Assembly (NCBI GenBank): GCA_025345505.1
Contig: JANVCC010000174.1
Span: 1,603,656 to 1,667,655 of the forward strand
Direction: 5' to 3'
Source: Todiramphus chloris collaris
Lineage: Eukaryota > Chordata > Aves > Coraciiformes > Alcedinidae
Length of the DNA stretch: 64,000 nt
Every line of letters starts with the position of its first letter. Position 1 is the stretch's first letter. Below are positions 46,601-49,600 of the stretch, one piece after another. The position numbers and the translations under genes are program-made. Below the pieces are notes generated by a model. It had not been told where the DNA came from and did not search any database. It was given only the letters and a program-made list of their open reading frames with translations.

Positions 46601-49600
46601 GCATCCCCGACATCACAAGGTATTTCCTAAAGCCTTGACCTAGCTTAGTTTTAGAAGGCTCAAGCAATTAGATTTTTGCTCTAACTGCTTCAAAGGAGTC
46701 TGAAAGTCTTGGAGAAACTCTTTTTCTCTCAGTTTTTCAGCATGCTCATGGTCTTTAGAACTGTCATCTCACTTCCCTTCTACATTTGTACATGGTAACT
46801 GGCTCTATCAGGTTATGTGGCTGGCCACAGGCCACCTCAGAATGACTATCAACCACAGCCAGGGCTCTGAATGCTCTTGGAAAACACCCAGGATAGTAGT
46901 AAGACTACAAAAGTGTAATTTTTTTTAGAACAATCTTCCTAAAATACCTGGGGTTTATAAAAACCATTTATTTCTTTCTCCAATTTGGGCTGATGGAGTA
47001 AAAATTAAGATATTTATTTTCAAAAACATTTCTGTATCAGCCAAGTCACTGCAGCATTACTCTGCAATGGAACATAAAGCTACAGACGATCCTACCCTGC
47101 ATTTACATTCCCAAAAGCTTTCTTATTTTTTCCTTGGCATACCCACTGTTCCGTGGGGTTTTTGCAGAGCTATCTGGCCAGCTTCCAGATAGAACTCACT
47201 AATATCAATTCTCATTTTGCTTTCACTGTCACACAAATGAAAGGGCTTTGCTATACGATTCCTACCGTCTCTCTTCCCCCTCCATTCTTGGCTGTTCCAA
47301 CTACATCAGCCTCTGCTATTTACCATGTCAAAGGACTAGTTTAAACTTTCAGGTGTATTTTCTTTACAGGTCAGAGAAGCAATCTCCAGCTGTTAAGCAG
47401 CAATGAATCTTCAACAAAGCCATACAGTTTGCATCAGCTGGCTGTCTGCCACTGCATCTTTTTCTACATGCTAACCTGCATCCTCATTTGCCAGTTTTTC
47501 ACGGGAGAACATGAACATGATGTACCACTGGTTTTAAAATTACAACCACGGGTGAATAGTATTCCTTCTACTCATACAGTCAATGAGGAGTTCCACTCAA
47601 ACATCATTTCAGAAACCATGCTCATTAAACCTAAAAAGCAGTATGATTAACATTTACTTTTTCTTAGTCACCTCCTCCAAAACAGGTGACTAACCAGCAT
47701 TTGTTACACATGTTTATGTGCCACCTTAAAACCCCATTCAAGTCATCTCCTTGGCTTTAGTCATTTCCCAAGTTCCTCTGAAGGACAGACTGTTAGTTCC
47801 TCAGCAACCAAACATGCAGGTTACATTCTCTTTCTCCGATACCTGGACCCAAACTGGACACAAGAAAAATCATCATCTTCATTTTCTTCATCACTATCCT
47901 CAGACACATCAGAAACGGCAAGAAGGAGGGAGAAAGGGTTGTCGTATATACTACCACAACAGAAATGGAAAAGGCCATCAGATTTTAAGACAAAAGTAAA
48001 AGGAAATGGCAGCTTTTCTTTGTAAGTCTGCCAAAAATCATCTTTGCTAAACATGCAGACAATGGGCAACTCCACGTTAGTACAACCAAGACTAGAGTAA
48101 CATGCTCTGTTACACTACTACAAGTTATTTGTGTATCAAACCACCACGTGTTCACAAACCAGACCTTGAAAAAAAGAATTTCTGAGACATAATAAAAATT
48201 ATGGCTGAAGTGGGAACGTTTAGCCATGACTCAATAATAAGGATTACAATTCAAAGCTACTGAACTTTAAAGCAGTGGTCTCAAAACCTTGTGTGTTGGT
48301 TTCTCCCGCCCGCAGGGACCGGAGATTCCAGGAGCAGCCAGCAGAGAAGATGCAGTAGCACTTGGCCTGGCATTCTGAAATAGGCTGCTCTGTAATTTAA
48401 ATCTACGCACAAGGGAATCAAATCTAACACGGTCCAGCAAGTAACAACTTACAACAAATCAACTAATGCCCTACTGAAAAAACTGATTTCAAAGCAGGAG
48501 GTCTGTTTGGCTTTCTATCCAGCAGCAGCAACTGAACAGAAAGCTAAGAGCTTAACTGGAACAGATGGAAGAAGAGAAGGAAATTAAAACAATATTGCTA
48601 CCTTTAAAGCAATTCCATTGCACTTCAGATGCTTACAGAAGCAGGTTCAACATTTTGGCAAAGTTAGCTTGTTAGGAAGTCAATGTATTAGCACAAACCA
48701 AAACGCAGAAATCAACTCAGGGTTAAGCAGGGTGAGCTCAGCACAAACTGAAGTTATTCCAAACTGCAGGATTACGCCACACCCTGCACGGCACACATGA
48801 AACACGCTTTTGTTCTTTTGAAATACCTAGAAGGAATCCTGTTCAGTAAAGGAGACCGCCTGCGCAAGGTACTGGGTGAAGCAGTAAACAAAGGTGGACC
48901 CATTGTTGTGGGTCTCTGTCTGGATGTGATGACTGGCATGGCTGGAGGGCTAGCAGCCATGGCTGGAGGACTTGGTGAACTAGACGGGATGGAAATGCTC
49001 AAGGAACGTGGGATGGAAGAAGCTGAAAAGGCTCCAGAATGGGCAACAGTGTATGGCCGGTACCTCGGAGAGGAAGGCTGGATCCAGGAAGGGCTTGTTG
49101 CTGTGAGGTGAGAGCTGACAGTAATGGAAGGCACAGATGCAGTGGCAACTGAACTGGCTGGTGGGGTAAGAGATGAACCAGTCATTGGTACATAGCTTGT
49201 GAAATTGGTAGTAGGAGCTGGACTAGTCCCATAGAGACTAAACCAGTTACACAGGAAAAAGAAAAAAAAAAAAAAAAAAAAGGAATGATTTAGGATTTGC
49301 AGAAAAAGGGTGAAAAGATAAAATGAGCAAGAGAAGCTCTTGCCCTTCTGATGACTCTTCAGCAATAATTCTTCAGCGTACACACATAATTCCTTTTTAC
49401 TAATAAAAGCTGAATAATAATATGTTGAATAAAGCTATTTCACAATCTACACACTTTTAAGTTACAAGTCACAGCCTTCACTGATGCAAGTTAAGGATAC
49501 TATTCTGAAGGAACCAGCTACATGGCTTTAATCTATCAATTACAGTTCTAGCCATGGCAGTGGAAATGAAAACCGCTGAAATGGAGGGGTATTCAAACAC

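Follow-up and report, generated by a model that had tools for sequence, protein, structure and literature searches.

A probable bird counterpart of the striated-muscle exon 7a of UBE4B, flanked on both sides by RBFOX- and QKI-type motifs

The 64,000-nt stretch of DNA analyzed in this study (the window) carries on its minus strand a UBE4B gene, and a marked segment of intron 7 corresponds, very probably, to the striated-muscle exon 7a of that gene in a bird. We read the locus as the orthologue of the striated-muscle cassette 7a of UBE4B (UFD2a), which would be off by default and activated by RBFOX and QKI from the downstream side, and we assign this reading a probability of about 0.93. In mammals and zebrafish, the isoform containing exon 7a is described as restricted to mature striated muscle (Mammen et al. 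2011, PMC3235170), and human exon 7a, located between exons 7 and 8, is in frame and 153 nt long (PMC3235170). The present locus extends this published muscle-only ubiquitin ligase isoform to what is probably a bird genome. It represents known biology in a further species, and its possibly new feature is that a further pair of splicing-factor motifs precedes the exon. The features are listed in Table 1.

Table 1. Positions in the window of the UBE4B exons and motifs discussed in the text
Feature	Position	Strand	Remarks
UBE4B coding exons 1-28 including exon 7a	25585..63767	-	1346 residues; Ufd2P core and U-box
UBE4B exon 8	44507..44648	-	Begins TATGGG
ACTAAC (QKI-type)	47792..47797	-	+46 from the 7a donor
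TGCATG (RBFOX-type)	47813..47818	-	+25 from the 7a donor
UBE4B exon 7a (very probable)	47843..47950	-	108 nt, phase 2-2, in intron 7; mouse exon 7a 3' end matches 12/12 (PMC3235170)
Exon 7a acceptor (predicted)	47951..48012	-	AG-free 60 nt (48012-47953), then AG 47952-47951
AG dinucleotide, possible alternative or decoy acceptor	48047..48048	-	Would open a 204-nt in-frame exon at 48046
TGCATG, upstream	48052..48057	-	-107 from exon 7a; inside the 10-mer CTGCATGTTT
TACTAAC, upstream	48076..48082	-	ACTAAC 48081-48076 at -131; QKI-type core or branch-site consensus
GCGTG	48803..48807	-	At +20 past exon 7; human TGCATG is close by, at +21
UBE4B exon 7	48827..49237	-	411 nt; weak donor, TAG/GTATTT

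The exons of UBE4B were placed one at a time by aligning a human UBE4B protein sequence with the minus strand, and the junctions were set with a small spliced-alignment script. When the exons are joined, the reading frame runs from the ATG at 63767 to the stop codon at 25587-25585 without internal stops. An earlier reading made from the sequence only had given 1346 residues for the protein with exon 7a included, and exon joining reproduces this length; the protein would have 1310 residues with exon 7 only, 1209 with exon 7a only, and 1173 with neither. The joined protein matches Ufd2P_core (E = 1.3e-216) and the U-box in Pfam, and its PDB matches include chains with the names UFD2, E4, and "Ubiquitin conjugation factor E4 B." The alignment to the human sequence shows that the vertebrate N-terminal extension is present, and a basic RRRR motif is encoded in exon 2. 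The intron between exons 26 and 27 (26377-26839) is of the GC-AG type (AGAG/GCAAGT).

The proposed exon 7a, which the sequence-only reading had described as a 108-nt open segment of phase 2-2 in intron 7, is indeed found there, at 47950-47843 of the minus strand, and is bounded by a GGTAG acceptor (65% pyrimidine near it) and a CAG/GTATCG donor. Exon 7 ends in TCTAG, and exon 8 opens with TATGGG. The reading frame is kept across the 7-7a-8 junctions because exon 7 ends in AG, exon 7a begins with T and ends in AG, and exon 8 begins with T. The splice sites had been called plausible; they are present but weak, the donor being the third weakest of 27 scored UBE4B donors and the acceptor the fifth weakest of 27 scored acceptors on a simple matrix. 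Weak sites such as these are expected of a regulated exon.

On the other hand, the claim that this segment is the only in-frame cassette candidate in intron 7 did not hold, as 225 formal in-frame cassettes of 27-300 nt were counted in the intron. Among these 225, with 7a included, 4 equal or exceed the 7a scores at both sites, and 9 do so for the sum of the two; 7a could therefore not be picked out from splice sites alone. Both downstream motifs follow 16 of the 225 cassettes, and all 16 overlap the 7a interval. The weak splice sites and the abundance of formal cassettes, some with better sites, are what would be seen if the segment were a chance intronic open reading frame and not an exon, but the exact match of the mouse 3' end at the donor, the nearly human positions of the downstream motifs, and the acidic core, each described below (PMC3235170), support its identification as exon 7a and leave the chance reading with hardly any probability.

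Five mouse primers from Table 1 of PMC3235170 were compared with the bird exons. The mouse 7a-8 junction primer, in the sense orientation, agrees with the bird junction at 19 of 21 positions, and its exon 7a part matches at 12 of 12, ending exactly at the predicted donor, whereas the next best match in intron 7 reaches 9/12. The mouse 7-8 junction primer matches the bird 7-8 junction at 18 of 21 positions, and the exon 6 primer matches the end of bird exon 6 at 16 of 24. The primer near the 5' end of exon 7a gives 14/24 in the corresponding place and frame (FSFLFLE in mouse versus FSLLLAV in the bird) and 15/24 elsewhere in intron 7, which leaves the 5' part of the bird exon poorly tied to mouse; the best bird match of the exon 7 partner primer, 10/18, is not convincing (PMC3235170).

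Similar to the mammalian UFD2a-7/7a form, the bird exon lies between exons 7 and 8 with the same split-codon joins as in the mouse junction primers, contains an acidic core, and ends in GTTTGGGTCCAG, as in mouse (PMC3235170). In the exon 7a sequences described elsewhere, the acidic core is variable in length and the flanks are better conserved (PMC3235170). The bird exon is nevertheless 108 nt long, in contrast to 153 nt in human, and it differs from UFD2a-7/7a as described in having an extra upstream motif pair and no TGCATG near exon 7 (PMC3235170). The word "chicken" is absent from the main text of PMC3235170.

The downstream motif pair is placed almost as in human, in which TGCATG is at +26 and ACTAAC near +50 of exon 7a (PMC3235170). 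After exon 7a, ACTAAC is present at about +50 in five of the five species aligned in PMC3235170 and TGCATG in four, zebrafish being the exception; only one ACTAAC lies within 150 nt downstream of the bird exon, whereas two are reported for human. Within the bird gene the arrangement is distinctive: ACTAAC within 150 nt past the donor occurs only after 7a among the 28 UBE4B introns (27 plus the one after 7a), and TGCATG within the same distance occurs only after 7a and exon 20 (+59). When the published downstream rule is written as TGCATG at +10 to +80 and ACTAAC within 150, it selects 14 of the 4110 sense-strand GT dinucleotides, including the 7a donor; the upstream pair closely follows 8 of these 14.

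We propose that exon 7a would be skipped by default because its splice sites are weak and that, in muscle, RBFOX bound to the TGCATG at +25 and QKI bound to the ACTAAC at +46 would help U1 to define it. The Snap23 muscle microexon, which has a weak donor, offers a parallel, as QKI and RBFOX2 promote its inclusion from downstream sites (PMC12064062). Like the bird exon, it has a weak donor, and the intron that follows it carries RBFOX and QKI motifs; unlike the bird exon, it is 33 nt long and has a GC donor, and the 300 nt before it are described as free of QKI and RBFOX2 motifs (PMC12064062). Its regulation was shown by experiment (PMC12064062); that of the bird 7a is predicted from motifs. 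Among the literature matches listed, none apparently tests UBE4B as a target of RBFOX or QKI. PMC10920915, in the passages considered, only restates the finding of PMC3235170, and PMC13429693 describes a rare variant, associated with atrial fibrillation, that lies in a UBE4B isoform already known from heart and muscle; no further literature bearing on exon 7a was apparent among the matches listed.

Exon 7a adds 36 residues to UBE4B, and the encoded peptide, counted with the flanking split codons, has 37 residues and a net charge of -11. Of 62,080 stop-free 14-mers in the six frames of the window, a single one contains at least 10 Asp or Glu residues, and it is the exon 7a core; a stretch with at least 8 acidic residues in 14 is likewise confined to the exon 7a region in the 1346-residue protein. 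The description of this core as a CK2-like acidic patch is borne out in part, i.e., one S-x-x-E site (SDEE) is located in the core, while a second, formal match (SIYD) spans the 7-7a junction. A Pfam search with the exon 7a peptide (35 residues) returned no family. A SUMO-interacting motif (LLAV followed by SDVSEDSD) was considered and rejected: it is the sole match of its kind in the 1346 residues, yet such a match also turns up in 1412 of 20,000 shuffled versions of the peptide, and the stretch FSFLFLE derived from the mouse primer is without the strict core.

With the exon included, its 36 residues and their acidic core would lie after the N-terminal regulatory region and ahead of the ligase core. 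In yeast two-hybrid assays of the mammalian proteins, the isoform with both 7 and 7a does not bind VCP/p97, whereas the short form does (PMC3235170). The acidic patch may mask, or otherwise disturb, the basic VCP-binding RRRR motif of exon 2. The occurrence of this exon in what is probably a bird genome, with both downstream motifs at approximately the human positions, speaks for the acidic insert being functional.

The sequence-only reading had also placed four hexamers around the exon in mirrored order, and all are where it put them, i.e., ACTAAC-TGCATG, exon 7a, and TGCATG-ACTAAC on the sense strand. Its statement that this arrangement is unlikely by chance stands for the window. One cluster of two TGCATG and two ACTAAC within 290 nt is observed, and none occurred when the sense strand was simulated 400 times with a first-order Markov model, a result tempered by the fact that the downstream pair was expected beforehand. 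Motif pairs of this kind are common across the genome: TGCATG-N10-30-ACTAAC occurs at 2802 sites versus 2938 expected at equal base frequencies, and ACTAAC-N3-33-TGCATG-N218-248-TGCATG occurs at 44 sites, this locus included, versus 33 expected on the same basis. These counts were discarded as evidence because they are near the equal-base expectation. A control with the reversed patterns gave 387 pairs and 2 triples, far below 2802 and 44, but this was not counted as enrichment because the reversed pattern holds CpG, which is rare here (observed/expected ratio of 0.31 in the window).

The odds are about even that the upstream pair is a chance occurrence and that the downstream pair, shared with mammals, works by itself. 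The upstream motifs are unmentioned in the sections of PMC3235170 considered, in which the discussion is confined to downstream introns, and the genome-wide pairs and triples are close to the number expected. Folding of the interval with both pairs revealed nothing out of the ordinary in RNA structure (z = 0.46, with 65 of 100 shuffles folding equally well or better). ACTAAC is also present in the 150 nt before exons 3 and 6, both of which are counted as ubiquitous exons in the legend of Figure 2 of PMC3235170. Against chance, the hexamers are locally scarce (13 TGCATG and 8 ACTAAC in the 64-kb sense strand), and in the whole window both are fewer than the shuffle means (29 versus 44.5 for TGCATG and 23 versus 31.9 for ACTAAC). 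TGCATG within 150 nt upstream occurs at 7a only among 28 acceptors. Both TGCATG copies around the exon share the 10-mer CTGCATGTTT, of which the window contains no further copy, although at least two copies also arise in 6 of 100 shuffles; the reversed control, much lower probably because of its CpG, also stands on this side. If the upstream pair is active at all, it would most likely act as a repressor arm. In heart, QKI motifs are enriched downstream of QKI-activated exons and upstream of QKI-repressed exons (PMC10202634), and by the position rule for QKI and RBFOX2 (PMC10202634, PMC12064062) upstream copies point to repression and not to enhancement.

The upstream pair could instead belong to a second 3' splice site with TACTAAC as the branch site, TGCATG in the tract, and TTTAG ending at 48047, which would yield a 204-nt in-frame exon (a protein of 1378 residues) or an RBFOX-blocked decoy acceptor; we regard both outcomes as unlikely. 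TACTAAC is the classic branch-site consensus, its branch A is 30 nt from the AG, the frame is open, and the acceptor scores 0.55 on the matrix, not far from 0.46 for the acceptor of 7a. However, an open frame of such length is not rare, and the AG-free tract covers 21 nt with 57% pyrimidine versus 60 nt with 65% at 47950. Moreover, GGAG is located between the branch site and the acceptor, with its AG 4 nt past TACTAAC; an AG very near a branch site is generally skipped. In addition, nothing in the 32 extra residues resembles what has been published on exon 7a, which in human has 153 nt (PMC3235170).

The neighbor of cassette 7a is exon 7, which is also a muscle exon in mammals (PMC3235170), and the donor of the bird exon 7 is the weakest of the 27 GT donors scored in UBE4B. 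In human, TGCATG is located at +21 downstream of exon 7 (PMC3235170); near that position it is absent after bird exon 7, the first copy being at +770. The GCGTG close to the human position raises the possibility that the exon 7 RBFOX site was lost in this lineage. As exon 7 is without a TGCATG of the human type, control of the 7/7a pair may differ in the bird, and the missing site together with the extra upstream pair makes the locus a testable case of shifting control in coupled exons. A more elaborate scheme, in which control was rewired in the bird, would have the ACTAAC-TGCATG pair (746-770 nt after exon 7 and 107-131 nt before 7a) replace the lost exon 7 site and host the competing 3' splice site formed by TACTAAC, TGCATG in the tract, and the AG at 48047. 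The choice between the 204-nt and 108-nt versions of 7a would then fall to RBFOX and QKI; we consider this scheme quite improbable.

Elsewhere in the window, a search of Rfam gave no match at the gathering score. A poly-T run followed by a 100-base assembly gap of N occupies 24405-24548. The segment at 19500-21230 has a GC content of 0.705 and a CpG observed/expected ratio of 0.9, compared with 0.409 and 0.31 for the window, and is a CpG island; it is perhaps the promoter of the next gene, which in other vertebrates is KIF1B.
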